Part shown: positions 1 through 16,291 of the stretch, one piece after another
How the letters are laid out: each line of letters opens with the position of its first letter
How positions within the stretch are numbered: position 1 is the first letter of the stretch
Origin: an uncultured Lachnospiraceae bacterium
GTDB lineage: Bacteria; Bacillota; Clostridia; Lachnospirales; Lachnospiraceae
Length of the DNA: 39,131 bases
Direction: 5' to 3'
Assembly: GCA_902760755.1 (NCBI GenBank)
Contig: CACWHK010000016.1
Location: 1 to 39,131, forward strand
The notes under the pieces: model-generated
Told to the model about the DNA's origin: nothing
The model's database searches: none
Seen by the model: only the letters and a program-made list of their open reading frames with translations
Made by a program: the position numbers and the translations under genes

Positions 1-10
1 GGAAGTACCC

Positions 11-1375
11 TTAGTTTTTGAAGCTATGCACCGGAGCGGGGATCCGACCGGTCCGGCTGATGAGTGCGTCACATCCATAGGGATTCACAGCCATAATGGG
101 AGCGCTTCCCAGCAGACCTCCGAATTCCACGGTGTCGCCCACACCCTTTCCGACCACGGGAATGACGCGGACTGCGGTGGTCTTCTGGTTGATCATACCG
201 ATGGCCATCTCGTCGGCAATGATACCGGAAATGGTGGTGGCCTTCGTATCTCCGGGGATGGCGATCATATCCAGTCCCACGGAGCAGACACAGGTCATGG
301 CCTCCAGCTTCTCGATGGAAAGGGACCCTGCCTTGGCAGCATCGATCATGCCCTGATCCTCGCTGACGGGAATAAATGCTCCGGACAGACCTCCCACATA
401 GGAGGATGCCATGATACCGCCCTTCTTTACCTGATCGTTCAGCAGTGCCAGTGCAGCGGTGGTTCCCGGAGCTCCGGCCATATCCACACCGATCTCCTGC
501 AGGATATCCGCAACGGAATCACCGATGGCCGGAGTCGGTGCCAGAGACAGGTCCACGATACCGAAGGGAACACCCAAACGCCTGGAAGCCTCCTTCGCCA
601 CCAGCTGTCCCACACGGGTAATCTTAAATGCTGTTTTCTTGATGGTCTCACAGAGAACCTCGAAGGATTCTCCGCGGATTTCGGAAAGCACACTGCGCAT
701 AACACCGGGGCCGCTGACGCCCACATTGATGACACAGTCACCCTCGGTTACACCGTGGAAGGCGCCTGCCATGAACGGATTGTCATCCGGCGCATTGCAG
801 AACACCACCAGCTTGGCACAGCCGATGGAATCCTTTGCCTTTGTATATTCAGCAGCTTCCTTAATGATCTCTCCCATAAGGCGGACTGCATCCATGTTGA
901 TCCCGGTCTTGGTGGAGCCCAGGTTCACGGAGCTGCAGACCACATCCGTCTCCGCCAGAGCCCGGGGGATGGAACGGATCAGAAGCTCATCTGCCGTTGT
1001 CATATGCTTAGATACCAGAGCGGAATATCCTCCGAGGAAGTTTACTCCCACATCCAGGCCTGCCCGGTTCAGGGTCTTTGCGATCTCCACGAAATCCTCG
1101 GGAGTCTTGCAGACAGAACCGCCTACCAGTGCGATGGGTGTTACGGAGATCCGCTTATGAACGATGGGAATACCATACATTTCCGTGATGGACTTTCCTG
1201 TCTTCACCAGATCCTTTGCCGAGGTGGTGATCTTCGTATAGATCTTCTCGCAGGTCTCTGCCACATCGGAACCGACACAGTCCAAAAGACTGATGCCCAT
1301 GGTGATGGTACGGACATCCAGGTTCATACGGGATATCATTTCATTTGTCTCTAATACTTCGTTTAAAGTGATCAT
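11..1375 (-). CDS. PFL-family protein (UPF0210/DUF711)
   Basis: This 454-residue protein matches the conserved PFL family (UPF0210, DUF711). Members adopt a fold related to pyruvate formate-lyase but have no established reaction. Full family length is present, with glycine-rich blocks such as [12 protein letters not shown] and [16 protein letters not shown] and the late segment [17 protein letters not shown]. No signal peptide or membrane segment is visible, so it should be cytosolic. The ATG at 1375 sits five bases downstream of a GGAGGT site (1381-1386), which fixes the start. It follows the ACT-domain gene by about 50 bases, and the two genes occur as a pair in many Firmicutes, so joint regulation by an amino acid is a plausible inference. 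Family assignment is firm; function is unknown. Confidence 0.9.
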
Positions 1376-1426
1376 TGCATACCTCCGGAATCAGGATAAT
1401 ACAGAATATAGGTTTTCATCAGAAAA

Positions 1427-1699
1427 CTAAATTCTGTGCATCATGTCAAAGATTTCCTCTTTCTGGGTCTTGATCTGTACTCCGATCTCGTGGCCTACGG
1501 AGGTAAGTTCACGGGCAAGCTCCTCATGAGACTTCACTGCCTTATCCGTATCCACGATCATCATCATGTTAAAATAGCCCTGCATGGTGGTCTGTGTGAT
1601 ATCACAGATATTAATGTTGTTGCTGGCCAGATAATTGCAGACCTTTGCGATGATTCCTACGGTATCTTTTCCGATCACGGTGATAATTGTTCTTGACAT
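1427..1699 (-). CDS. ACT-domain protein (UPF0237 family)
   Basis: A 90-residue protein made of essentially one ACT domain. The N-terminal strand and turn MSRTIITVIGKDTVGIIA is followed by the helix beginning KVCNYLASNNINICDITQ, typical of small-molecule-binding regulatory ACT modules. The UPF0237 family is close in sequence to the GcvR type of stand-alone ACT regulator. The ligand is not known; amino acid sensing is inferred from the fold. A GGAG site lies about 12 bases upstream of the ATG at 1699. A strong promoter at 1765-1793 drives this gene and, by read-through, the PFL-family gene about 50 bases downstream. That conserved pairing suggests the ACT protein senses the substrate or product of its neighbour. 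Confidence 0.9.
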   Translation of the reverse strand: MSRTIITVIGKDTVGIIAKVCNYLASNNINICDITQTTMQGYFNMMMIVDTDKAVKSHEELARELTSVGHEIGVQIKTQKEEIFDMMHRI

Positions 1700-1740
1700 C
1701 AGCTTCTTTTGCTCCTTTCACTCGTCTTCCGCCGGAACTG

Positions 1741-1784
1741 TAAAAGGCGGAAATCGCTCCTCATATTATAGCGACTCCCGCCTT
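1741..1784 (-). terminator. terminator-like hairpin overlapping the ACT gene promoter
   Basis: Two 14-base arms (1744-1757 and 1771-1784) are complementary at 12 of 14 positions. On the transcribed strand the hairpin is followed by TTTTA. It sits just downstream of the lipoprotein stop codon and would act as its terminator. The 13-base loop contains the -10 box of the next promoter, so the two signals are physically nested. Confidence 0.6.
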
Positions 1785-1793
1785 CCGTTTCAA
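1765..1793 (-). promoter_or_regulatory. sigma-A type promoter for the ACT/PFL gene pair
   Basis: TTGAAA (-35, 1788-1793) and a perfect TATAAT (-10, 1765-1770) are separated by exactly 17 bases. The expected start of transcription is near 1758, about 60 bases before the ACT-domain gene. Confidence 0.8.
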
Positions 1794-1817
1794 TCCTTAA
1801 ATTCTTTGAATATGAAA

Positions 1818-2576
1818 CTACTTAATATCGGTTACATCAACAATGGAATAGGTTCCGTCAACCCCTGCATATACGGTCAGGATCGCATAACAGGTTGTTG
1901 CATTCTGATCCGAAAGAGTCTCCTCTGCCAGAATGATGTAATTTGTTCCCGCAACCACCTGGGTACCCATCAGTGCCAACGGAGTATAGGTTGCACCCTC
2001 CAGCTCGGCAGTTGCATTGTTAAATGCAGTCGTTGCCTCAGCCGTCATCTCGGGACCTGCTTCCGTAATACCGCCTGCCAGCTGCTCCGTGGGAGCCTGA
2101 ACCGTGGATGTAAGGAAGTTGGTGAACTCTGCATTTCCCTGAAGATCCGCATACAGAGTTACGATGGAATATACCGGCTTTGCATCCGGAACCACGGTAG
2201 TCTCCTTGCAGAGCAGGCAGTAGTTGGTTCCCGCAACCACCTGGGTTCCAAGCACTGCTACCGGCTCATAGATAGCACCGGTCAGTGTCTCACTTGCCTT
2301 TTCCACCAGACTCTTGATCTCCGGTGTGATCACCGGAGAAGCCGGCTTCTCCCAGCCGCCGGAGATCTGCTCTCCGCCATCCGGAGTCACTTCAGAAGCC
2401 ACCTCAGAAACTACGTCCTCGGACGTATTCTCTGCAACTGTTGCCTTCTGGGTATTTTCCACCTTCTCGACCATCTCTACGGTGGATGCTGTTGTGGCCT
2501 TGTCATCCTTACCGCATCCTACCATCATCATAGCCATAGCTGCGATCAGCACAGCTGCCGTAATCTTCTTTCTCAT
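1818..2576 (-). CDS. lipoprotein with two cystatin-like repeats
   Basis: A 252-residue predicted lipoprotein. The ATG at 2576 follows AGGAGG (2585-2590); a longer reading frame reaches 2627 but lacks a ribosome site. Residues 1-20 form a signal peptide with lipobox MVGC, and Cys21 would be lipidated. Residues 22-72 are an acidic, low-complexity linker. Two related domains follow, about 83-155 and 174-252. Each has a helix-like segment, then TQVVAGTNY (QVVAG at 112-116 and 206-210), then strands ending near YADLQGN or YAGVDGT. QxVxG is the first protease-binding loop of cystatins. The first repeat also matches stefins before the loop (TPEI then a helix), and glycine pairs precede both domains (73-74 and 168-169). 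Cysteine protease inhibition is inferred, not shown. A weak -10 (TATAGT, 2628-2633) is visible upstream without a clear -35. Confidence 0.75.
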   Translation of the reverse strand: MRKKITAAVLIAAMAMMMVGCGKDDKATTASTVEMVEKVENTQKATVAENTSEDVVSEVASEVTPDGGEQISGGWEKPASPVITPEIKSLVEKASETLTGAIYEPVAVLGTQVVAGTNYCLLCKETTVVPDAKPVYSIVTLYADLQGNAEFTNFLTSTVQAPTEQLAGGITEAGPEMTAEATTAFNNATAELEGATYTPLALMGTQVVAGTNYIILAEETLSDQNATTCYAILTVYAGVDGTYSIVDVTDIK

Positions 2577-2664
2577 AAACGTTTCCTCCTGTCGTATATT
2601 CAATGCTCGTTTTGAGCTATCTATCATACTATACTGATTCCATAATGATTTTTATGGGTTTATT

Positions 2665-3459
2665 TTAAAATTCAATGATCGGATCCGCCGTATCCCTGGC
2701 AGCGATCTTAATATTCAGATCCTTCGGGTCCGGTGCGAAAGGATTTCCCAGAAGCTCCTGAAGTACGGTTTCATAGGCCAGCTCGGGGAAATTGTTCTCC
2801 TTTGAGAGATGCCCGAGGCGGATCTCCTTTACATGATCATTCAGAAGGGCACGGATAAATGCCCCGCCTGCCTCATTGGAAAGATGTCCCCGGTTGCTCA
2901 GGATCCTCTGCTTCAGAGGATAGGGATAGGGACCCACCTCCAGCATGCGGATATCATGATTTGCTTCGATCAGCATCATGTCACAGCCCTGCAGCTCCCG
3001 GATCAGTGCATCCGGAACGTACCCCAGGTCCGTAGCGATACAGCACTTCTTCTCTCCGTCCGTAAAGCTGTAGCATACCGGATCCGCAGCATCATGGGAC
3101 ACCGCATGCGTCCGGATCTCCAGATCCTTCAGCTGGATGCTGTCCCCTGCCCGAAAGGGTCGGAACAGCTCCCGGTCCAGCTTCCCGAGATTCATGCGAA
3201 AGATCGAATCGATGGTCCGGTCCGTGGCATAGACGGGCATATGATACTTTCTGGAAAGCACCCCCAGGCCCCTTACATGATCGATATGCTCATGAGTGAT
3301 CAGGATCGCGTCGATATCACTTCCGGTATAGTCTGCCGTATTAAGACACTCTTCTATTTTTTTCATACTGACGCCGGCATCACAGAGGACCGTCACCCGA
3401 TCGGTTCCGATAAGGGTACTGTTCCCGCTGCTTCCGCTGACGAGATTCATCATTTTCAT
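2665..3459 (-). CDS. metallo-beta-lactamase-fold hydrolase, YycJ/WalJ-like
   Basis: A 264-residue protein of the metallo-beta-lactamase superfamily, closest in outline to YycJ/WalJ of Firmicutes. The opening MKMMNLVSGSSGNSTLI is characteristic of that group. The metal-binding motif HEHIDH is at residues 56-61; later histidines fall in SHDAAD, GHLSNEAGG and LGHLSKENN. No signal peptide is present, so it should be cytosolic. The family is proposed to act as an exonuclease or phosphodiesterase linked to DNA replication or cell wall signalling, but the walRK genes that often accompany it are not in this window. Its start overlaps the stop of the ASKHA gene by four bases, indicating translational coupling. 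The exact substrate is unknown. Confidence 0.85.
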   Translation of the reverse strand: MKMMNLVSGSSGNSTLIGTDRVTVLCDAGVSMKKIEECLNTADYTGSDIDAILITHEHIDHVRGLGVLSRKYHMPVYATDRTIDSIFRMNLGKLDRELFRPFRAGDSIQLKDLEIRTHAVSHDAADPVCYSFTDGEKKCCIATDLGYVPDALIRELQGCDMMLIEANHDIRMLEVGPYPYPLKQRILSNRGHLSNEAGGAFIRALLNDHVKEIRLGHLSKENNFPELAYETVLQELLGNPFAPDPKDLNIKIAARDTADPIIEF

Positions 3460-4529
3460 AGGTTTCTTTTTCCCAGTATCATAGAACTGTAAAGCAGCCC
3501 TTCGTAGTCCGGATCCCCGGCAAGCTGCTGTGTATGCACCTTTCTTCGGAAGGCGTCATAGGAATCCGTTCCCTCTGTCACCATCCGTTCGGATGCAAGA
3601 AGGGAGGTATTCCCGGCTATGGTTACCCGGTCCAACATCTCCTCCGGAATAAGACCGATGGTTACGGCATCCCGAAGAGACAGGTGGAAGCCGAAGCCTC
3701 CTGCCAGACAGATCTTTTTCACATCCCCTGCAGCAAGTCCCGCACGTTTGAGGAGCATGGCATAGGTTGCATAGATGGCAGCCGAAGCCAGCTGGATCTC
3801 ATGGAGGATCTTCGCTGTGATCCTTATGCCGCGGAATTCGATCCCGTCTCTTGCCTGTTCCTCCGTTAATACTCCGTCCTCCCGGAGCTTCCCCTGCCGG
3901 AGCAGGTTCGCCAGCACGGAAATGGTGGTAGACCCGTAGATTCCCCGGGATCTGGTACAGTTTTCAAAAGCCGGTCCGCAGGCTGCGCTGGCCCCGTGGA
4001 AGATCCCGTCATGGCAGACGATCATTTCCCCGTTGGTTCCAAGGTCCATCAGGACCTCTCCTTCTCCGAGTCCGAGAACCCACGCGCCTCCGCAGGCATC
4101 ACTGCCTAAGAATGCGGAAGCCCCTACCGGGATCGTCATGGGGACTCCGAAAAGGTTCGTTTCTTCATTCTTGGAAAAGGGCATGCCAAAGGGTGCCTGT
4201 CCCAGCATGCCCGTATCGTATCCGAGGAACAGGGAGCCCATGACCGTATTGCAGGTAACAAGGATCCGATTAAGATCCACCGGAAATGCTGCCTTATTCC
4301 AGGAAAGCATCTTCGAGAGGGTATCCCGGAGTTCATTCTTAAGACAATCCTGCATGGCAGTATCACCGGGATGCTTTTGCTGATAGGTCATACGGGAGAT
4401 CACATCCGAACCAAACCTGCTTTGCGGGTTGGCAAATCCGGATTTGGCCGTAACGGATCCATCCGTCCGAAGCAACGATACTTCGACAGAGGTTGTACCC
4501 AGATCGATTGCAGCGTAGAAATCCCCCAT
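3456..4529 (-). CDS. RACo-like ASKHA-domain protein lacking the ferredoxin domain
   Basis: A 357-residue protein with the ATP-binding fold of the ASKHA superfamily: DLGTTS (9-14), DLGTNGE (162-168), CGPAFE (184-189), AGGFG (276-280) and AGNTSL (305-310). These motifs match the C-terminal part of RACo-type reductive activators of corrinoid enzymes (DUF4445/COG3894). Those proteins usually carry an N-terminal 2Fe-2S ferredoxin domain and linker and run to about 600 residues. Here both are missing, and the protein begins directly with the first phosphate-binding motif. It sits between threonine dehydratase (16 bases upstream) and the YycJ-like gene (four-base overlap). It may reactivate a corrinoid protein such as the MetH in this window, using a separate electron donor; that is inference. 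Confidence 0.75.
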   Translation of the reverse strand: MGDFYAAIDLGTTSVEVSLLRTDGSVTAKSGFANPQSRFGSDVISRMTYQQKHPGDTAMQDCLKNELRDTLSKMLSWNKAAFPVDLNRILVTCNTVMGSLFLGYDTGMLGQAPFGMPFSKNEETNLFGVPMTIPVGASAFLGSDACGGAWVLGLGEGEVLMDLGTNGEMIVCHDGIFHGASAACGPAFENCTRSRGIYGSTTISVLANLLRQGKLREDGVLTEEQARDGIEFRGIRITAKILHEIQLASAAIYATYAMLLKRAGLAAGDVKKICLAGGFGFHLSLRDAVTIGLIPEEMLDRVTIAGNTSLLASERMVTEGTDSYDAFRRKVHTQQLAGDPDYEGLLYSSMILGKRNL

Positions 4530-4545
4530 AGATGCTCCTTCGTAT

Positions 4546-5769
4546 TTAGAGAGCCGCCTTCGGGCTCTTATCCAGCGGTCGGTAGCCCTTCTCCTTCAGG
4601 ACCTCCATGATCTTTTCCTTATGCTCCGGTCCGAAAGCTTCGATGGTGATCACAAGCTCAACCGCCGCATTCCGGTTCAGGGATACGAACTGGTTATGCT
4701 CCAGCTTGATGATATTGCCCTGCAGCTCCGCAATGATGCGGGAAACCTCCATCAGCTGCCCCGGCTTATCCGGAAGCAGTACGGATACCGTAAAGATCCT
4801 GCTTCTTGCAATGAGGCCGTGCTGAACCACGGAGGAAAGGGTGATCACATCCATATTTCCGCCGGACAGGATGCTGACAACCTTCTTTCCTTCCTTCGGC
4901 AGATGCTTTAACGCAGCTACCGTCAGAAGTCCGCTGTTCTCAACGATCATTTTATGATTCTCGATCATATCCAGGAAGCTGACGATCAGCTCACTATCCT
5001 CAACGGTAATGATATCGTCCAGATTCTCCTTGATATACGGGAAGATATTGGTTCCCGGAGTACGAACTGCAGTGCCGTCGGCTATGGTATTTACCCCCGG
5101 AAGGGTTGTGACTGCCCCAAGCTTCAGGGATTCCTGCATGCAGTTGGCTCCCGCCGGCTCCACGCCGATCACTTTGATATCCTGATTCAGCATCTTGGCC
5201 AGAGTGGAAACACCGGTAGCCAGTCCGCCGCCGCCGATGGGTACCAGAATGATATCCACGAAGGGAAGCTCCTTCAGGATCTCCATGGCTACGGTACTCT
5301 GTCCGGTGGCAACCTCCAGGTCATCAAAGGGATGGATGAAGGTATAGCCCTTCTCCTCTGCCAGCTCCAGCGCATAGGCACAGGAATCATCATACACATC
5401 TCCGTACAGGATCACCTCTGCCCCGTAGGACTTGGTGCGGTTCACCTTGATGAGAGGTGTAGAGGTGGGCATAACGATGGTTGCCTTCACTCCGTAGGCC
5501 TGTGCCGCATATGCCACACCCTGGGCATGGTTTCCTGCGGACGCGGTAATAAGACCCTTGGCCCGTTCCTCATCGGAGAGCTGGCTGATCTTATAATAGG
5601 CACCCCGGATCTTATAGGCTCCGGTCACCTGCATATTTTCAGGCTTCAGATAGACCTTATTCCCCGTAAGATTACTGAGAAATTCGCTTTCGATCAGGTT
5701 CGTGGGACGAACCACCTTCGATACGATCTCATATGCCTGTTCACATTTTTCTCTTGTGATCTTATCCAT
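4546..5769 (-). CDS. ilvA: threonine ammonia-lyase with C-terminal ACT domain
   Basis: This 407-residue PLP enzyme deaminates threonine to 2-oxobutanoate, the first step toward isoleucine or a catabolic route to propionate. The PLP lysine is Lys53 in TGAYKIRGA, and the phosphate-binding loop is IGGGGLATG. The first 320 residues form the fold-type II catalytic domain. A single ACT-like domain follows at about 325-400 (FTVSVLLPDKPGQLMEVSR). This is the short clostridial/TdcB-like layout with one ACT domain, not the long form with two regulatory domains. The ATG at 5769 is chosen because GAGGA lies at 5777-5781; an in-frame extension to 5826 overlaps the upstream gene and has no ribosome site. 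The window also holds ilvN and ilvC, about 17 kb upstream. A biodegradative role cannot be excluded. Confidence 0.9.
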   Translation of the reverse strand: MDKITREKCEQAYEIVSKVVRPTNLIESEFLSNLTGNKVYLKPENMQVTGAYKIRGAYYKISQLSDEERAKGLITASAGNHAQGVAYAAQAYGVKATIVMPTSTPLIKVNRTKSYGAEVILYGDVYDDSCAYALELAEEKGYTFIHPFDDLEVATGQSTVAMEILKELPFVDIILVPIGGGGLATGVSTLAKMLNQDIKVIGVEPAGANCMQESLKLGAVTTLPGVNTIADGTAVRTPGTNIFPYIKENLDDIITVEDSELIVSFLDMIENHKMIVENSGLLTVAALKHLPKEGKKVVSILSGGNMDVITLSSVVQHGLIARSRIFTVSVLLPDKPGQLMEVSRIIAELQGNIIKLEHNQFVSLNRNAAVELVITIEAFGPEHKEKIMEVLKEKGYRPLDKSPKAAL

Positions 5770-5822
5770 AAATCTGTCCTCTTTACTTATTTGGGTACAC
5801 AGCCATAGGATTCCCCGGCTGA

Positions 5823-6458
5823 TCATTTTTCATATGTCGGATCTGAGACGACATCCAGAACAACACCAAGAAGATTCAGTAACCCAACGTCTTCATCATT
5901 ATCGTCTTCGTCATTATCATCATTATCCTTATCTTCAGCCTTCACTTCGGCAGCCGCTTTTTCTTCAGCCGCTTTTTCTTCAGCCGCCTTTTCTGCAGCC
6001 GCCTTCTCTGCAGCCGCCTTCTCTGCAGCATTCGACTCTTCTAACTCAAAGAGACCCTCATATTTCTTAAGGGTAATGATATCACTGATCAGTTTATCCA
6101 GGAACGGTGCCAGCAGAAATGCATTGTTCTCTGATATACCCAGAAGCTTCTCCGTCTGATCCCGCACCGGATCCCAGTTCTTCAACAGGACGATGGCAGT
6201 CTTCGTCATAGTGTCCTTGAAATATACAGCCTGATCCGTGATCACAAGCCCGTTCTTCCCCTTGCTGAACAAGGATGTGTCATAGATCATGAGGATTGTT
6301 TCTTCCGCATTCCTTTTATCCACAAAATGCTTCAGTACCTTTTCCTCATGTTTTTCGGGGATATTCGGATAGTACTCCGGCTGAAACCCGCCGTTTTCAT
6401 TCTTCATGCATTCATGGAATCTGTCTTTTATGAGATTGACCAGATTGTCATTATACAT
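5823..6458 (-). CDS. unknown protein with Ala/Glu/Lys repeats and acidic tail
   Basis: No family is recognised with confidence. The 211-residue protein has a folded-looking N-terminal part (about 1-140) containing KNGLVITDQAVYFKD, which resembles the strand pattern of bacterial PH-like or YvbH-type domains; this is only a resemblance. Residues from about 145 carry repeated AEKAA/EEKAA units, then a very acidic stretch (DKDNDDNDEDDNDED), then a hydrophobic C-terminus (VGLLNLLGVVLDVVSD). No signal peptide is seen. It starts three bases after the ftsY stop with GGAGAG as ribosome site and ends just before threonine dehydratase, so it is probably cotranscribed with both. The repeats make its length prone to variation between strains. 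Confidence 0.7.
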   Translation of the reverse strand: MYNDNLVNLIKDRFHECMKNENGGFQPEYYPNIPEKHEEKVLKHFVDKRNAEETILMIYDTSLFSKGKNGLVITDQAVYFKDTMTKTAIVLLKNWDPVRDQTEKLLGISENNAFLLAPFLDKLISDIITLKKYEGLFELEESNAAEKAAAEKAAAEKAAEEKAAEEKAAAEVKAEDKDNDDNDEDDNDEDVGLLNLLGVVLDVVSDPTYEK

Positions 6459-6461
6459 CTT

Positions 6462-7427
6462 CTACTCTCCACTCTGATTATAGTCTTCAGAATCGTTTTC
6501 AAGGATCCGCTCCGTATCGGAGGGCATGCTGAAGCCCGAGAACAGTGCCGTGATGTACTGATCCGGATCGAAACGCTCCATATCCTCCACCTTCTCGCCC
6601 ACACCGATATATTTGACGGGCACATTCAACTCGGCTTCGATGGCTACGGCGATACCGCCCTTGGCGGTTCCGTCCAGCTTGGTCAGGATGATACCGTTGA
6701 TCTCGGTAACATTGGAGAACTGACGGGCCTGTTCCAGGGCATTCTGGCCGGTGGAGCCGTCCAGTACGATCAGGGACTCCACATATGCCTCCGGATATTC
6801 TCTGGAAATGATGCGCCGCATCTTCGCCAGCTCATCCATAAGATTCTTTTTATTATGAAGACGTCCCGCCGTATCGATCAGCAGGATATCCGTTCCCCGG
6901 GCCTTGGCAGCGGAAACGGCATCAAATACAACGGCAGAGGGATCTCCGCCCTCGCCCTGTGCGATCAGCTCCACGCCTGCGCGGTTGGCCCAGGTACGGA
7001 TCTGCTCCACGGCTCCCGCACGGAAGGTATCGCCTGCTGCGATCAGGACCTTCTTGCCCCGGGCATGATACTTGGCAGCCAGCTTTCCGATGGAGGTGGT
7101 TTTTCCAACACCGTTTACGCCGATCACGAATACCACCGACTTCTTATCCTCGAAATCATAGGCAGATTCGTCCACGGACATCTGATCCCGGAGATTGTTC
7201 ATGACCAGATCCTTGGTCATTTCCGCACTCTTCAGCTTCTGCTCCTTCACCTGCTTCTTCAGGTCCTCGATCACGCGCTCCGTGGTCTCAAAGCCCATAT
7301 CGGCTTCGATCAGGGTTTCCTCGAGCTCGTCATAGAACTCGTCCGTGATCTCGGTTGCTTTAAATACATTTGCGATACTGGCACTGGTCTTCTTCAGACC
7401 TTCCTTCAGTCTCTGGAAAAATCCCAT
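6462..7427 (-). CDS. ftsY: signal recognition particle receptor FtsY
   Basis: FtsY is the membrane-associated GTPase that docks the signal recognition particle and hands nascent chains to the Sec translocon. The 321-residue protein has an N-terminal helical N domain (about 1-95) and the G domain: GVNGVGKTT (103-111), DTFRAGA (133-139), DTAGR (185-189) and TKLDG (249-253). The long acidic N-terminal extension of the E. coli protein is absent; the short amphipathic MGFFQRLKEGLKKT probably mediates membrane contact. It starts 12 bases after the smc stop. The rnc-smc-ftsY order is widely conserved in Firmicutes. Identification is secure. Confidence 0.98.
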   Translation of the reverse strand: MGFFQRLKEGLKKTSASIANVFKATEITDEFYDELEETLIEADMGFETTERVIEDLKKQVKEQKLKSAEMTKDLVMNNLRDQMSVDESAYDFEDKKSVVFVIGVNGVGKTTSIGKLAAKYHARGKKVLIAAGDTFRAGAVEQIRTWANRAGVELIAQGEGGDPSAVVFDAVSAAKARGTDILLIDTAGRLHNKKNLMDELAKMRRIISREYPEAYVESLIVLDGSTGQNALEQARQFSNVTEINGIILTKLDGTAKGGIAVAIEAELNVPVKYIGVGEKVEDMERFDPDQYITALFSGFSMPSDTERILENDSEDYNQSGE

Positions 7428-7439
7428 AGTGTTCCTCCC

Positions 7440-10400
7440 TTAATCGTCCAGCTTATCCTCGATCAGGTTCACGGATACCAGGGTGGAGACACCCTTCTCC
7501 TGCATGGTGATACCGTACAGGATATCCGCGCACTCCATGGTTCCCTTTCTGTGTGTGATGACGATAAACTGTGTATCCTTGGTCAGCTTCTTAAGATACT
7601 TTGCAAATCTGGTTACATTCGAATCATCCAACGCAGCCTCGATCTCGTCCAGAAGACAGAAGGGCGACGGCTTCAGACTCTGGATCGCAAAAAGAAGTGC
7701 GATGGCGGTAAGACTCTTCTCACCACCGGAGAGCTGCATCATGTTCTGCAGCTTCTTTCCGGGGGGCTGTGCGTTGATCACGATACCGGTCTCCAGCAGA
7801 TTCTCCTCATCCACCAGCTCCAGATCTGCCTTACCACCGCCGAAGAGCTCCCGGAAAACCTTGCTGAACATGGCCCGGATCTCTCCGAACTTGGAAGCAA
7901 AGGTTTCCTTCATGGCCTTATCCAGCTCGGCGATAACGCTGCGCAGGTTCTCCTCTGCCTTGATGATATCGTCATGCTGTGTCTTCAGGAAGGTATACCG
8001 CTCGAATACCTCCTTATATTCCTCAATGGCACCTACATTTACCTCACCCAGTGCCTTGATCCTTTGCTTAACGGCAGAGATCTCCTTCTTCATCTCCGCA
8101 GGGCTAAGCTCTTCCTCATCCCGGAGCTTTTCAGTTTCACTGTAGGTAAGCTCATACTCCTCCCACATGTAGGTGGTAAGACTTTCCTTGCTTTCCTCCA
8201 GCTTCTCCATGGCCGTGGTGAGCTTGAAGGCTTCCTTCTCAAGACCGGTCATATCCGTGGTCAGGGCTTCCCGCTTTCCGAAGAACTCCTTATGGGTCTT
8301 ATTGATGACTTCCTTTTCTTCCTGCTTCTTTGCCTGCTCAGCCCTGATCTCCTCCAGCTTCGCCTGGTTGGATTCGATCAGCTTCTTACTCTCACTGATC
8401 CGGTCGGAAAGCTCCGTTACCTCACGGACACGCTCGCCACAGCGTCCCTGCAGCGATGCCTTCTCCTCCTCCTGACGGGCAAGATCCGCGGCAAGACGGG
8501 AGATGTCATTCTGATAGAACTCGTCTCTTTGGGTTACGGTACCGAGAGACAGCTGTGCCTCGGCCAGCTGTTCCTCCAGAGAACGACGCTCCCGGTCGAT
8601 CTCCTCACCTTCCTTTTCCAGTCCTTTGATGGACTCCTCCTGCAGCCGGATGGCTTCCTGCTGCTGCTTTTCGGTATCGAAGAGCTCGGATTTATTCTTT
8701 TCGATGTCACGGACCTGCTGATCCAGCTCATCATTTTCGCGCTTAATGGAAGCAAAGGAGGTTTCCAGGGCAGCGACCTTTCGCTCCACCTGCTCCAGAT
8801 TGATGGAAACCGAGTTCTTCTCCAGCGTCAGCTTCTGGATCACGGACTGATACTGGATCCGCTGCTCCTTCAGGGATTCCCGCTGCATGGAGAGCTCAGC
8901 ATCCTCCTTCTTCGCCTCGTTATACTTCTTTGTCATATCCGCGATCTGGGAGGTCAGCTCGTCCAGCTCTCTCTTCCTTCCCAGAAGGTTGCTGTTGTTC
9001 CGGAAGGCACCACCGGTCATGGAACCGCCGGGGCTTACCAGCTCCCCGCTGGGGGTTACCAGACGCAGGGTCTGCTTATACTTTCTTGCGATCCGGATGG
9101 CAGCATCGATATCCTTTGCCACGATGGTCCGGCCCAGCAGACTCTCGATCACGGTCTTATACTTCGGATCGGTCTTTACCAGCTCGGAGGCGATCCCGAT
9201 CACTCCGTTTTCCGATAAGGCATCCGGATTCACGGATCCTCTGGACATCACGGAAGAGATGGGGAGAAATGTGGCACGTCCCAGCTTTCCTTCCCGAAGG
9301 AAGGCGATCATCCGCTTCGCAGTCTCTTCGTCCTCGGTAACGATGTTCTGGATGGATCCGCCGAGAGCCGTCTCGATGGCTGTCTCATACTTGGAATCCA
9401 CCTCTATGATATCGGCAACCACACCGACGATCTTCGGATTCTCCTCCTTTTGCTCCATCACCTTCTTAATGCTGTTTCCGTAGCCTTCATAGCGTTCGGA
9501 CAGGTTCCGGAGGCTTTCGAATCTGGATTTAAGCCGGATCAGCTCCTGGCTGTAACGGTTCATCTCACCGCGAACGGTTCCGCTCCGGTCCGTCTTGGCA
9601 CGAAGGTCCGCCTCCAGACGATCCATCCGCTTCTGGTTATCCGACAGGCTGTCGGATACGGAGGTTTTCTGCTCGGAAAGGATTTTCTCCTCTTCCTTTG
9701 CCTTCTGCTCCTCACTCTTTTCGGACAGGTACTTCTGACGAAGCTCTGATCTCCGGAGAGTGATATTCTCCAGCATGGTATCGTACCGGGCAACCTTCTC
9801 CTTTACGGTTCCGCCCAGGTTCATGTAATCGATGATGGCACCCTTGGCCTGCTCGATCCTTACGGAAACGTCATGACGCTGCTCCGTCTTCTCCGTAAGA
9901 GATTCCTCCAGGGTCCGTACTGCCTGCTTCTTCTCCTTTAACTCCGAGGAAAGGGTGCTGCGGGTCTTTTCCACGGCCGCCTTCTCATCGGAAAGACGCT
10001 GGATCTCTCCGTTGATCCGCTCCATCTGAAGAAGGAGCTCCTGCTCGGAGTTCTTTGCTGCGGAGATCTTCTCCTGCAGGACACGGATCTCACCCTCTGC
10101 ATGCTCATTTTCCAGAGAGATCCTGTGGGAATCGTCTGCCAGCTCCTGCATCCGCTCGGTCAGGGCTTCCAACTCCGATTCAAGGCGATCGTACTCTTCC
10201 TTGGTATGGTCAAACTCCGACTGCAGGCGTGCCCGCTCTGCCTCGGTGATATCCAGCTTTTCTTTGGTCTTATGGATCTTATCCTCGATCTGGTCGATCT
10301 CCAGGTTGAAGAGATTGATATCCAGGCGCTTCTGCTCCTCTTTCAGCTTCAGATACTGCTTTGCCTTCTCAGACTGCTTCTCCAGAGGGCCCACACGGTC

Positions 10401-10997
10401 CTCCAGACCGCTCAGAATATCATTGACACGGTTCAGGTTGTTATGCTCCTGCTCCAGCGCCTTCTCCGTTGCCTGCTTATTCTTCTTATACTTTACGATA
10501 CCGGCAGCCTCGTCAAAAAGGTCCCGGCGGTCATCCGGCTTTCCGGACAGGATCCGTTCGATCTGGCCCTGACCGATGATGGAATAGCCTTCCTTACCGA
10601 TACCGGTATCAAAGAAGAGGGCTGCAACATCCTTAAGACGGGTGACATTTCCGTTGATCAGATACTCACTCTCACCGGAACGATACACACGACGGGCGAC
10701 CGTTACTTCCGTAAAATCCACCGGAAGGCTATGGTCCGAGTTGTCCAGGGTGATGGCTACATAGGCGAAGCTCTGGGGCTTCCGAAGCTCGGTTCCGGCG
10801 AAGATAACATCCTCCATCTTGGAACCACGGAGCTTTAAGGCACTCTGTTCACCCAGCACCCAGCGGACCGCATCACCGATATTACTCTTTCCGGAGCCGT
10901 TGGGTCCGACGATGGCAGTGATCCCTTCGTTGAACTTAAAGGTCATCCGATTGGCAAAGGACTTAAATCCATTGACTTCAATACTTTTCAGATACAT
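7440..10997 (-). CDS. smc: chromosome condensation ATPase SMC
   Basis: SMC is the ATPase of the bacterial condensin that organises and segregates the chromosome with ScpA and ScpB, both encoded in this window. The 1185-residue length is typical. The Walker A motif GPNGSGKSN is at 31-39. Two long coiled-coil arms (about 170-500 and 660-1010) flank the glycine-rich hinge at about 515-640. The C-terminal head has the ABC signature LSGGEKS (1089-1095) and Walker B followed by the catalytic glutamate in LLDEIEAALDD. The ATG at 10997 has only a weak ribosome site. It lies between rnc and ftsY in the conserved cluster. Nothing in the catalytic motifs is unusual. Confidence 0.98.
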   Translation of the reverse strand: MYLKSIEVNGFKSFANRMTFKFNEGITAIVGPNGSGKSNIGDAVRWVLGEQSALKLRGSKMEDVIFAGTELRKPQSFAYVAITLDNSDHSLPVDFTEVTVARRVYRSGESEYLINGNVTRLKDVAALFFDTGIGKEGYSIIGQGQIERILSGKPDDRRDLFDEAAGIVKYKKNKQATEKALEQEHNNLNRVNDILSGLEDRVGPLEKQSEKAKQYLKLKEEQKRLDINLFNLEIDQIEDKIHKTKEKLDITEAERARLQSEFDHTKEEYDRLESELEALTERMQELADDSHRISLENEHAEGEIRVLQEKISAAKNSEQELLLQMERINGEIQRLSDEKAAVEKTRSTLSSELKEKKQAVRTLEESLTEKTEQRHDVSVRIEQAKGAIIDYMNLGGTVKEKVARYDTMLENITLRRSELRQKYLSEKSEEQKAKEEEKILSEQKTSVSDSLSDNQKRMDRLEADLRAKTDRSGTVRGEMNRYSQELIRLKSRFESLRNLSERYEGYGNSIKKVMEQKEENPKIVGVVADIIEVDSKYETAIETALGGSIQNIVTEDEETAKRMIAFLREGKLGRATFLPISSVMSRGSVNPDALSENGVIGIASELVKTDPKYKTVIESLLGRTIVAKDIDAAIRIARKYKQTLRLVTPSGELVSPGGSMTGGAFRNNSNLLGRKRELDELTSQIADMTKKYNEAKKEDAELSMQRESLKEQRIQYQSVIQKLTLEKNSVSINLEQVERKVAALETSFASIKRENDELDQQVRDIEKNKSELFDTEKQQQEAIRLQEESIKGLEKEGEEIDRERRSLEEQLAEAQLSLGTVTQRDEFYQNDISRLAADLARQEEEKASLQGRCGERVREVTELSDRISESKKLIESNQAKLEEIRAEQAKKQEEKEVINKTHKEFFGKREALTTDMTGLEKEAFKLTTAMEKLEESKESLTTYMWEEYELTYSETEKLRDEEELSPAEMKKEISAVKQRIKALGEVNVGAIEEYKEVFERYTFLKTQHDDIIKAEENLRSVIAELDKAMKETFASKFGEIRAMFSKVFRELFGGGKADLELVDEENLLETGIVINAQPPGKKLQNMMQLSGGEKSLTAIALLFAIQSLKPSPFCLLDEIEAALDDSNVTRFAKYLKKLTKDTQFIVITHRKGTMECADILYGITMQEKGVSTLVSVNLIEDKLDD

Positions 10998-11048
10998 AGT
11001 TTTCGAATTCCATTTCTGTCTTACATTTATGCTTATTTGCGAAACGCT

Positions 11049-11741
11049 TTAGGAAAGCCCAAGCTTACGCAGGGTCTTATGTGCCGCCTCCATCTGGGCT
11101 CCCTTGATGGAGTGGGCCTGCCCGATCTCATACGGGGTTCCGCCGATTATTACCTGTGAGGTATAAACCCGAAGGTGATCCGGTCCGGACTGATCCAGGA
11201 GCTCATAGGTAAGCTCCAGCCCCTGACTCTGGGCATACTCCTGCAGGATGGTCTTGGCATCCGTAAAGAGAGTTTTATGCTCCATATCCGTAAGAAGATG
11301 ACGCTCCACGTATTCCCTGGCAGGCTCCATGCCTCCATCCAGATAGATGGCACCCAGCACGCTTTCAAAAAGATCACAGAGGATGGAGGAACGCTCTCTT
11401 CCTCCCGTCAGCTCCTCTCCCTTTCCCAGGATCACATAGTCTCCGTAGCCCAGACCCTTCGTGATCTGGGACAGCGTATACTCACAGACAAGGCTTGCCC
11501 GCTTCTTGGTAAGCTCCCCTTCCGAAAGCTCCGGATACTTCTGATAAAGTGCCTCACTGGAGATATACTCCAGGATGGAATCCCCCAGGAATTCCATTCG
11601 CTCATACTGGGGAATCTCACGAATATGATATTCAGCTGCAAATGATTTGTGGGTCAGGGCCGTGCGGAGCAGGGTGGGATCCTGAAACCGGTATCCGATC
11701 CGTTCCTCAAGGGGTCCGAACTCCATAGATTCGTAATTCAT
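11049..11741 (-). CDS. rnc: ribonuclease III
   Basis: RNase III cleaves double-stranded RNA, processing rRNA precursors and some mRNAs. The protein has the catalytic signature ERMEFLGDSIL (47-57), a second acidic site in the LFESVLGAIYLD helix, and a C-terminal double-stranded RNA-binding domain (about 155-228) ending in QMEAAHKTLRKLG. The ATG at 11741 gives 230 residues, the usual length, and starts one base after the plsX stop. A longer in-frame start at 11798 would run into plsX and is less likely. The acpP gene that often separates plsX and rnc is absent. Identification is secure; the start is probable. Confidence 0.96.
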   Translation of the reverse strand: MNYESMEFGPLEERIGYRFQDPTLLRTALTHKSFAAEYHIREIPQYERMEFLGDSILEYISSEALYQKYPELSEGELTKKRASLVCEYTLSQITKGLGYGDYVILGKGEELTGGRERSSILCDLFESVLGAIYLDGGMEPAREYVERHLLTDMEHKTLFTDAKTILQEYAQSQGLELTYELLDQSGPDHLRVYTSQVIIGGTPYEIGQAHSIKGAQMEAAHKTLRKLGLS

Positions 11742-11742
11742 A

Positions 11743-12762
11743 TTATTCGGTAACGGTCCCTTCTTCTGCCAGGCCTTCGATGATCTTTCCGCTGACATTT
11801 GTATTTACGAAGTTTTTACACTGAAGGACCGCAGAGGAAAACTCTTCATCCTTCGAATTGCCATGCACCTTCACCAGAAGTCCGTGCTTCAGGCCCAGCA
11901 GCGGCGCACCGCCCTTGTTGCTGGCATTGAAGTTGCTTAAGGTCTTCTTCAGGGATTTTTTGATCATAAGGGCACCGATCTTACTCTTCACGGTACTCAT
12001 CATGGCCTTCTTGATCTCCTTCAGGATCATCTTGGAAAGGCCCTCGTAAAGCTTCAGGACCACATTTCCCACGAAGGCCTCGGTCAGGATCACATCCGCC
12101 TTACCGAAGGGAATCTCCCGGGATTCGATGCTTCCGACGAAATTGATGGACTTGCAGGCCTTCAGCAGCGGGAAGGTTTCCTTCACCAGGGCATTTCCCT
12201 TCTCCTCTTCCGTTCCGATATTCACGATGGCAACCCGGGGCTTTTTGATGCCCATAACATTCTGCATGTAAATGGATCCCATCTTTGCAAACTGCACCAG
12301 GACCTCCGGCTTTGCATCCACATTTGCACCGCAGTCGATCAGAAGCTTCATGCCCTCCGTGGTGGGAAGCAGGGGAGCCAGCGGTGTCCGCTTTACGCCC
12401 TTGGCACGTCCGATGATCAGGCTTCCGCCGGCCAGTACCGCACCGGAGCTGCCCGCAGAGATAAAGGCATCTGCCTTTCCTTCCTTCACCAGATTAAGAC
12501 CTACTACAAGAGAGGAATCCTTCTTCGTCTTGATCGCCTCCACCGGTGCATCATGACAGGTGATCTCTTCGGCACAGTCGATCACCTCCAGACGATCCTT
12601 ATCATAAGTATATTCCGACAGCAGCTGATCCAGCTCCTTTTTCCTTCCGGTCAGAATCAGCTTCACGTCCTTATTCTGCTGCAATCCGTTCACGGCTCCT
12701 TTTACGGCTGCCGGAGCACCATTATCTCCTCCGAGGGTATCGATGACGATATTCACACTCAT
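11743..12762 (-). CDS. plsX: phosphate acyltransferase PlsX
   Basis: PlsX converts acyl-ACP to acyl-phosphate, the substrate used by PlsY (also in this window) to acylate glycerol 3-phosphate made by GpsA. The 339-residue protein opens with the family hallmark VIDTLGGDNGAP and contains the glycine-rich SAGSSGAVLAGG and the C-terminal GGAPLLGLKHGLLVKVHG block. The ATG at 12762 is preceded by AGGAGA (12769-12774); a longer frame to 12825 would include non-conserved residues. A promoter lies at 12838-12866, and a terminator separates the gene from rpmF upstream. It heads the plsX-rnc-smc-ftsY series. Confidence 0.97.
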   Translation of the reverse strand: MSVNIVIDTLGGDNGAPAAVKGAVNGLQQNKDVKLILTGRKKELDQLLSEYTYDKDRLEVIDCAEEITCHDAPVEAIKTKKDSSLVVGLNLVKEGKADAFISAGSSGAVLAGGSLIIGRAKGVKRTPLAPLLPTTEGMKLLIDCGANVDAKPEVLVQFAKMGSIYMQNVMGIKKPRVAIVNIGTEEEKGNALVKETFPLLKACKSINFVGSIESREIPFGKADVILTEAFVGNVVLKLYEGLSKMILKEIKKAMMSTVKSKIGALMIKKSLKKTLSNFNASNKGGAPLLGLKHGLLVKVHGNSKDEEFSSAVLQCKNFVNTNVSGKIIEGLAEEGTVTE

Positions 12763-14470: not shown

Positions 14471-16291
14471 TTATGCCAGTTTCGTTTTTTTTTGCGTATC
14501 GTCCGGGAACTCCTGCGTAGACTCCTGAACATCCTTTATGTCAGATGTATCCTTTACGATCCGGATATCCGGCCGGTTTCCTTCCACCTGCGAAAGTGCT
14601 TCCTCTTCCCTTCCGAAGATTACGATCATGCCGCGGCCGTTTTCCTTACTGAAGTACATGGCACGGTCGGACTGATCCAGAACATCCACGATCTCCGTAG
14701 CGATCTCCGGGTAGTTGGACATACCGATACTGGAGTTCACATGGATCTCTTCCTTCTCGTAACGGACTACCGTATTCACGATATCATCATGCACCTTCTG
14801 CAGGATCTTCCGGAACTCATCCACGGAATAGCCGGGAAGGATCAGTAGGAACTCCTCACCGCCGTAGCGAACCGCATACCCGTGATACATGTCTGCGTAC
14901 TTCCGGTCCACTGCAGCCACCATACGGATCACCTCGTCACCGGCCAGATGCCCGTAGGTATCGTTGATGGATTTAAACTTATCGATATCCAGCAGAGCCA
15001 TGGAGAGACTTCTGCCGTCCACAATACATTTTGCACAGATGCTGGGGAAGATCTCGTTGAAGTAGGCCCGGTTGTATACGCCGGTAAGGCCGTCCTTTAC
15101 GGCCATGTCCTTCATCTGCAGATACAGCTTCGTACTCTGCACGGAGCTGGTGAAATCAACCAGCGCCGACTCATAGAAGGAGTATCCGGCTTGAAAGAAG
15201 TCATAGGCACCGGACATAACCACCATGACACCGTAGTAGTCCTCATTCACGTAGGCCGGGATCGCTACCGCATTTACCACACTGGTATCGCTTAGGATCC
15301 CCGTCAGGAAATCGCCGTTATCGCAAAGCACCAGCGGGTCCGGATTCTTTCTTCTCTGAGTCATGTCATAGATCGTAAAGAAGTCCCGCTCCATGGCATC
15401 CCGGTAGGTTTCATTTCCGGTGATCACGGCACAGTAGGGGTCATTGTTCAGAAAGACCTTCTCACGGATATAAAGACCTACGGCGGTAGGACTCTTCAGC
15501 TCCATGATGTTCTCCATCATGTGCTTTGCATTCTCCTCCACATCGAAGGTGGATGAGAAGCCCTTCATCATCTCGATCAGGGAACGAACCTCTTCGTTCT
15601 TGCTTTCCAGCTCCCGGTTGGCCTTTACCAGGTTCAGCTTCTGGAAGTTGATCTCGCTGTTGACCTGCTCCACACGGTCCTGATACTTTAAGAGCTTGTT
15701 CCGCTCCTCCTCCAGGTTGATGTACTTGAAATGGGTATCCGTTGCCTTCTTTTCATACATCCTTATACCTTCAAGAAAGCTATGGAACATGATATAGCAG
15801 ACGCCCACGATCACGGCTCCGATCAGGATCTCCAGAAGGATCCAGACACCGCTCAGGATGTTCCGGAAGCAAAGGGCCATGCTGACCATCACCAGGAAGA
15901 GATACAGAACCCGGCGGATAAAGATACCGAAGTCATCGAAGATATCATTCAGGATCATATCCTCATAAATGATCAGGATATCGTAGATCAGGAACGGGAT
16001 AAACTCCATGGGATGCGGAGGTCCGAAGAGGGTTCCGCCGGACAGGAAAAGTATCGCCAGAAATGCCCGGACGCTGAAGAACTTCTTCGGCACGTTGAAC
16101 TTCCTCCAGAGAAGATATTCATCCATAACCGCGCAAAGAAGGATCGCGATCAGATAGTATGCCAGGGTTGTGGGCTCGGGAGAAACCTTGCAGAAATAGC
16201 ACATTAAAACGACACTAAACAAAACCACATAGAAAGCTCTATGCAGCTTGAAGTGTCGTGACATGTAGATCGTTTTATACTGCTCCGGCAT
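14471..16291 (-). CDS. membrane-bound diguanylate cyclase with GAF-like domain
   Basis: This 606-residue protein should make cyclic di-GMP at the membrane. About six hydrophobic segments fall within residues 19-170 (near 19-36, 44-62, 73-90, 97-111, 126-143 and 150-170). A coiled-coil linker (about 185-245) and a GAF-like sensory domain (about 245-385) follow. The GGDEF domain (about 395-560) has GGEEF at 477-481 and metal-binding LLDIDKFK, so it looks active. The inhibitory RxxD site expected five residues before GGEEF is replaced by MYHG, which suggests weak product inhibition. The C-terminal 45 residues are polar and not conserved. It has its own promoter inside the end of coaE and precedes ackA. 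The N-terminal signal it senses is unknown. Confidence 0.93.
   Translation of the reverse strand: MPEQYKTIYMSRHFKLHRAFYVVLFSVVLMCYFCKVSPEPTTLAYYLIAILLCAVMDEYLLWRKFNVPKKFFSVRAFLAILFLSGGTLFGPPHPMEFIPFLIYDILIIYEDMILNDIFDDFGIFIRRVLYLFLVMVSMALCFRNILSGVWILLEILIGAVIVGVCYIMFHSFLEGIRMYEKKATDTHFKYINLEEERNKLLKYQDRVEQVNSEINFQKLNLVKANRELESKNEEVRSLIEMMKGFSSTFDVEENAKHMMENIMELKSPTAVGLYIREKVFLNNDPYCAVITGNETYRDAMERDFFTIYDMTQRRKNPDPLVLCDNGDFLTGILSDTSVVNAVAIPAYVNEDYYGVMVVMSGAYDFFQAGYSFYESALVDFTSSVQSTKLYLQMKDMAVKDGLTGVYNRAYFNEIFPSICAKCIVDGRSLSMALLDIDKFKSINDTYGHLAGDEVIRMVAAVDRKYADMYHGYAVRYGGEEFLLILPGYSVDEFRKILQKVHDDIVNTVVRYEKEEIHVNSSIGMSNYPEIATEIVDVLDQSDRAMYFSKENGRGMIVIFGREEEALSQVEGNRPDIRIVKDTSDIKDVQESTQEFPDDTQKKTKLA

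Follow-up and report, generated by a model that had tools for sequence, protein, structure and literature searches.

The two-domain lipoprotein gene and its family

At positions 1818-2576 of the window, by which we mean the whole stretch of 39,131 nucleotides analysed here, the minus strand of an uncultured Lachnospiraceae genome encodes a lipoprotein of 252 residues in which two cystatin-like domains follow one another. Open-frame analysis reads the gene from an ATG at 2576 to a stop codon ending at 1818, and this start is favoured over the ATG at 2627 because of the AGGAGG at 2585-2590. The features are as follows, with the basis of each assignment in parentheses.

1818-2576, minus: gene for the two-headed cystatin-like lipoprotein, 252 residues (open frame; relatives with the same architecture)
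2585-2590, minus: AGGAGG, probable ribosome-binding site, 8 bases 5' of the ATG (sequence)
2514-2576, minus: signal peptide with lipobox VGC, Cys21 being the predicted lipidated residue (sequence and weak NCBIfam matches)
2367-2513, minus: linker, residues 22-70 (sequence; the single-sequence model has low confidence over most of it)
2088-2366, minus: first cystatin-like domain, residues 71-163 (profile match at 2106-2366, and model)
2352-2360, minus: N-terminal part of wedge 1, Gly-Gly-Trp (family conservation)
2229-2243, minus: first hairpin of wedge 1, QVVAG (model and conservation)
2133-2147, minus: second hairpin, presumed part of wedge 1, DLQGN (model and conservation)
1821-2087, minus: second cystatin-like domain, residues 164-252 (profile match at 1821-2081, and model)
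2067-2075, minus: N-terminal part of wedge 2, Gly-Gly-Ile (conservation)
1947-1961, minus: first hairpin of wedge 2, QVVAG (model and conservation)
1851-1865, minus: second hairpin, presumed part of wedge 2, GVDGT (model and conservation)
3456-4529, minus: further gene on the same strand as the lipoprotein gene

Other neighbours on this strand are what we take to be a PFL/DUF711-type gene (11-1375), a metallo-beta-lactamase-fold (MBL) gene (2665-3459) and a threonine dehydratase gene (to 4546). An opposite-strand frame of 326 residues at 1635-2615 was set aside as a shadow of the lipoprotein gene. NCBIfam models match the lipoprotein weakly, mostly through lipoprotein N-termini and always below cut-off.

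The residue numbers given in the sequence-only reading are correct: the VGC lipobox ends in Cys21, QVVAG lies at residues 112-116 and 206-210, the glycine pairs are at 73-74 and 168-169, and the TPEI segment of the first repeat is found as ITPEI from residue 83. The two tandem repeats that it described are also there, at a length nearer 90 residues than its estimate of about 75. They share 37% identity, and both contain TQVVAGTNY, preceded in each case by the glycine pair and a helix segment. At the DNA level the two QVVAGTNY stretches (2220-2243 and 1938-1961, minus strand) are identical in 22 of 24 bases, against 37% for the domains in protein, a pattern that could reflect local gene conversion or codon bias.

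A whole-protein search of 61 genomes (our own and 60 relatives) gave matches in 27, many over the signal peptide only; matches over the domains occur in 12 genomes besides the source genome, with which a profile search of these agrees. Within larger and mutually overlapping samples, the profile is positive in 28 of 392 genomes of the order and in 15 of 391 of the class, one of the latter with four internal stops. Of 395 stretches in genome_contigs that match the pattern, at least 316 code for relatives, and the earlier statement that clear cystatins are uncommon in bacteria therefore needs correcting for this lineage. No relative was found in viral contigs in one scan with P0001. Judged by title, the best 80 of the 316 are Bacillota, namely Lachnospiraceae, Ruminococcus (including R. 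albus and R. flavefaciens), Eubacterium, Saccharofermentans and other Clostridia, with single Selenomonadales and Erysipelotrichaceae also among them. A ruminant gut site is named in the titles of 16 of these 80 loci and red deer in 2 more (by eye), and 43 further titles bear RUG or RUI labels, which we take to denote rumen projects; as these counts come without a background rate, we claim no ruminant enrichment.

The 74 non-redundant open reading frames (ORFs) at the 80 loci hold one domain in 15 cases, two in 52 and four in 7, and a simple pattern finds a lipobox-like motif in 50 of them. Two domains are combined with choline-binding repeats in L002, L012, L032 and L033, and L096 is a fusion to a sub-threshold match of Cu_amine_oxidN1. 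Other layouts were seen by eye. In L014, L015 and L016 the two domains follow a long, anti-sigma-like N-terminal part with a probable membrane segment, and these proteins may be sensors. Some 140 residues containing SGD form a shared C-terminal tail after the two heads in L082, L085, L111, L113, L124, L130, L134, L137, L139, L142 and L143; Pfam gave no match to the tails of L130 and L143. In L052, L055 and L056 a single domain lies behind spore-coat-like repeats rich in Cys, Pro and Gln.

The lipoprotein is 41-70% identical to four relatives and diverges more than its PFL, threonine dehydratase and MBL neighbours. We do not read an arms race into this fast divergence, as the neighbour at 3456-4529 is also only 55-64% identical to its counterparts in relatives.

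Resemblance to cystatins in fold, sequence and wedge residues

The AlphaFold2 model built with 25 aligned sequences (pLDDT 92.4, pTM 0.87) predicts for each domain the helix-on-sheet arrangement that had been named as a check on the cystatin assignment. In model numbering (offset 68), domain 1 comprises a helix at 17-27 and strands at 33-46, 48-59, 67-75 and 81-92, and domain 2 a helix at 111-121 and strands at 127-139, 142-153, 160-170 and 175-183. The order in each is helix, strand, QVV-A-G turn, strand, strand, second turn, strand, which is the cystatin order, and in both domains QVVAG forms a tight turn between strands 1 and 2, where an inhibitory hairpin had been expected. The model from the single sequence is poor (pLDDT 58.6), with the helix and four strands per domain already visible.

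Foldseek finds two PDB entries at E <= 0.001 and no others: the phytocystatin 2mzv (1.7e-5, the best) and latexin 2bo9 (9.5e-4). The best 50 of 556 rows also hold latexin a second time, fetuin-B, tick cystatins and a Fasciola stefin; NTF2-like proteins take ranks 3-5 and 7, and papain-bound tarocystatin stands further down these 50, amid low-probability matches to unrelated proteins. TM-scores of the target are 0.49-0.63 for those listed cystatins that have one domain, and about 0.3, with large rmsd, for matches over two domains; the low values probably come from a different placement of the heads. Even with the poor single-sequence model, latexin, phytocystatin and multicystatin come out on top, none at E <= 0.001.

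Sequence comparison with single proteins gives a fainter signal. Pfam Cystatin (PF00031), proposed earlier as a test of each repeat, matches neither domain alone; the whole protein is matched over two stretches (E 0.0021) with 18.7 bits, below the gathering cut-off of 22.2, as is the relative L044 with 21.0 bits. Four of 30 single domains from the genus are matched at E <= 1 (best 0.018). A six-frame search of the 61 genomes with this model returned 0 matches, and controls likewise returned 0. In five short relatives with a single domain it finds nothing at E <= 0.1 or 1 either, so that these provide no bridge to accepted bacterial stefins; one of the five, the distant relative L158, which has no signal, matches cystatin B at E 0.5 only, behind an unrelated protein at 0.018. 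With phmmer, the six PDB sequences that match the lipoprotein at E <= 10 are all cystatins, cystatin A at the top with E 0.13, and TPEI and TQVVAGTNY align in register. The likeness to stefin A pointed out before is thus real, and weak for a single protein.

Profiles strengthen it. Built from 30 genus domains, a profile matches 20 PDB sequences at E <= 10, the best at 0.0024 and all with cystatin-type names, and one built from 21 domains (17 of those 30 and 4 from other loci) finds 22, again all so named, the best at 6.8e-6 and 12 at E <= 0.001; the names concerned are cystatin, stefin, sialostatin, mialostatin and CPI, all of which we take to denote cystatins. The 21-domain profile aligns to stefin A over positions 2-77, from the N-terminal glycine to the second hairpin. 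When eight motif residues in the same 21 rows are replaced by X, no PDB sequence is matched at E <= 10, and kinship outside the motif is therefore undetectable by sequence; the sequence signal for cystatins, as these searches read it, is one that hangs on the motif in its context.

By eye, the lipoprotein has no PW and no four-cysteine pattern, the marks of type 2 cystatins (I25B), and where stefins (I25A) are defined by a single domain without a signal peptide, it has two domains behind a lipoprotein signal.

The wedge of cystatins is described as consisting of three elements, the N-terminus and the first and second hairpins (PMC2784779). We followed these elements through 240 matched domain rows, of which 207 were left after removal of identical rows and of rows shorter than 70 residues. 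QxVxG is present in 199 of the 207; one of the 8 exceptions departs from it through V to I alone (QxIxG), and the motif has been lost in some first or second domains. As the 80 loci had been fetched with QVVAG[TK]NY, three subsets were also counted: of the domains in those loci that do not contain this string, 57 of 58 keep QxVxG; of the domains from loci that a profile had picked up, 27 of 31; and of those from loci to which the whole-protein search in the genus had led, 27 of 30. The top columns in all three subsets include Gly3 in the N-terminal segment, Gln42, Val44 and Gly46 in the first hairpin, and Gly77 in the second. Gly3 is found in 99% of 197 rows, which upholds the suggested likeness of the glycine pairs to the N-terminal glycine of cystatins; Gly77 is found in 95% of 207 rows, without PW. 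The match to stefin A is more than chance: both domains keep QxVxG in 74 of 82 distinct two-domain ORFs at the loci examined.

Proposed function and candidate targets

The predicted fold, the place of the hairpin, the conservation of the wedge and the architectures lead us to read the lipoprotein as a tethered, two-headed inhibitor of papain-type (C1) proteases, and we consider this function probable. It is the function that the sequence-only reading had proposed, and computation bears it out in the helix-on-sheet fold, QVVAG at a turn, the retention of the three putative wedge elements, the two heads and the lipid anchor. After export the protein would receive its lipid at Cys21 and sit on the outside of the cell membrane, with a flexible linker tethering both heads to the anchor. 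Each stefin-like head would present a wedge made of the N-terminal Gly-Gly, the QVVAG hairpin and a hairpin of the D-L-x-G-N type, which would plug the active-site cleft of a C1 protease without being cut itself, in a presumably tight and reversible inhibition, and one molecule could hold two proteases. Likely targets would be C1 proteases near the cell surface, whether the bacterium's own exported enzymes or those of feed, host or grazing ciliates, and the target may differ between species.

An own protease is a candidate target that the earlier reading did not contain, suggested by a gene pair on contig 14 of the same genome (L149:4118-8069, minus strand), where a papain-like protease gene is followed 31 bp downstream by a wall-anchored, two-headed paralogue of the lipoprotein. 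The protease (909 residues) has a signal-like N-terminus, a Peptidase_C1 domain (3.7e-8), a lectin-like domain and choline-binding repeats; the catalytic Cys, Asn and His would lie in its motifs GTCWAF, VKNSWGG and, found by eye, HSVCIIGYDD, respectively. The paralogue is a choline-binding protein of 396 residues with two cystatin-like domains. The repeats common to the two are promiscuous anchors, found also in another neighbour. A second C1 peptidase of 840 residues, which likewise combines that lectin-like domain with choline-binding repeats, is encoded on contig 14 about 16 kb from the first (L150:2587-5109, plus strand). In another genome (G017), two ORFs on from the matching cystatin gene, a fragment at the contig end is 44% identical over 144 residues to the C-terminus of the contig-14 protease; this is probably the same linkage, the presumed protease being cut by the contig end before its catalytic part.

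We do not take adjacency of protease and cystatin genes as a general rule, since it is seen at a single locus of one genome and probably in a second genome. A phmmer search with three own C1 proteins, less sensitive than a profile, found no C1 peptidase in the flanks (up to 6 kb) of the 80 loci, and inspection by eye of window ORFs 1-12000 found no C1 gene near the lipoprotein gene. Two further loci bear on the neighbourhood. In G020, two repeat-anchored, two-headed paralogues (L161:5894-8211, minus strand) take the place of the lipoprotein, with the PFL, MBL and threonine dehydratase genes as neighbours just as in the window; no C1 gene was found in the 14 kb read around them or on their contig. 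In G129 (L163), some 9 kb separate a single-domain gene (5402-5698, minus strand) from a C1 peptidase gene (14802-16121, plus strand), a nearness that may mean nothing, as the latter sits between the same neighbours as the C6 protease of our own genome.

Across genomes of the order, a C1 peptidase was detected in 20 of the 28 with the domain and in 131 of the 364 without it (Fisher p 4e-4, shared ancestry ignored). Could the protein, then, be an immunity protein only, shielding the cell solely from its own exported C1 peptidases? The contig-14 pair and its probable counterpart in G017 speak for this, as does the presence of a C1 peptidase in all 12 same-genus, domain-bearing genomes tested. 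Against it, no C1 gene was found by eye among window ORFs 1-12000 near the lipoprotein gene, or by phmmer in the relatives' flanks, and no C1 peptidase was detected in 16 of the 34 domain-bearing genomes tested, which stand for 34 of the 80 loci; an own-protease target is for this reason not general, and the genomes without C1 peptidases suggest a foreign one. We regard an exclusively self-protective role as unlikely. For a C1-protease inhibitor with foreign targets, the rumen offers a candidate in the ciliate Entodinium caudatum, which feeds on bacteria and whose transcriptome shows high expression of C01A peptidases (PMC6925433). The C1 proteases of this ciliate are candidate foreign targets, as are host and plant enzymes.

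Another possibility is that the cystatin fold and its hairpin are kept for a different purpose, such as ligand binding, sensing or the inhibition of proteases of another class. Latexin and fetuin-B, which inhibit metalloproteases, are among the best structural matches. The aspartic-proteinase-inhibitor model PF16845, presumably a member of the cystatin clan, matches 9 of 30 genus domains at E <= 1 (best 1.1e-4, with scores, where given, below cut-off), and the layout of L014-L016, with its probable membrane segment seen by eye, would suit sensing. What weighs against such a purpose is the near-universal retention of QxVxG, the hairpin that binds C1 proteases, also in domains without the fetch pattern; latexin and fetuin are not known to have it. 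We think this quite improbable. Convergence, in which an unrelated bacterial domain with a QVVAG hairpin on a helix-and-sheet fold would have acquired a cystatin-like action without shared descent, could account for the silence of the masked profile beside the 22 matches of the unmasked rows and for the weak single-sequence scores of phmmer and Pfam, but it is very unlikely, as element order, hairpin place, second hairpin and N-terminal glycine all agree with cystatins at once and the stefin A alignment spans the length from that glycine to the second hairpin.

Beyond inhibition of C1 proteases by this lipoprotein, a wider picture can be sketched, which we offer tentatively and hold to be doubtful as a whole: gut Clostridia may carry papain-like proteases together with matching two-headed cystatins on one cell wall, as a counterpart of the cathepsin-cystatin system, in one-, two- and four-headed forms anchored by lipid or to the wall, which in ruminants could also shield the cell from the C1 proteases of feed plants or of ciliates that eat bacteria.

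A large family lies just under the Pfam threshold, with a candidate target encoded beside one member, which makes it directly testable whether true cystatins are at work in bacteria and what they act against. If the heads work, they would have a bearing on proteolysis and perhaps on grazing by rumen ciliates.

Comparison with known systems

Among bacteria, the staphopain of Staphylococcus is a papain-like protease whose gene lies beside that of its inhibitor, staphostatin, a pairing that resembles the arrangement proposed for the contig-14 locus; staphostatins are cytosolic and have a different fold. Kininogens, multicystatins and tandem phytocystatins also carry several heads in one chain, and are secreted animal or plant proteins not known to have a lipid tether. 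Kininogens bind two cathepsins (PMC10380794).

The closest likeness is to the stefins (type 1, MEROPS I25A; stefin A and B), in size, in the TQVVAGTNY hairpin and the N-terminal glycine, in a second hairpin without PW, in the absence of the four-cysteine pattern and in the profile alignment to positions 2-77 of stefin A. The window protein differs from them in its tandem heads, signal peptide and lipid anchor, and in its score below the PF00031 cut-off.

On the basis of sequence, stefins have been reported from bacteria of eight phyla, within Firmicutes only from Clostridia, where 15 of 60 Clostridium genomes hold them, and were suggested to be emergency inhibitors (Kordis and Turk 2009, PMC2784779). 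By its description there, the set of Kordis and Turk agrees with ours in being bacterial, in QxVxG, in the class Clostridia and in the proposed inhibition of cysteine proteases, and is called very rare and patchy. A review of 2012 restates the report and calls for experimental data (PMC3594739). None of the papers listed by our literature search, which left subscription journals largely outside, describes a bacterial cystatin with tandem, lipid-anchored heads or puts one to a functional test. Compared with that set, the family described here stands out by heads in pairs, by anchoring through lipid or to the wall, and by matching stretches that number at least 316. The kind of protein is already known; new are these pairs and anchors, the abundance in Clostridia and the paralogue linked to a protease.
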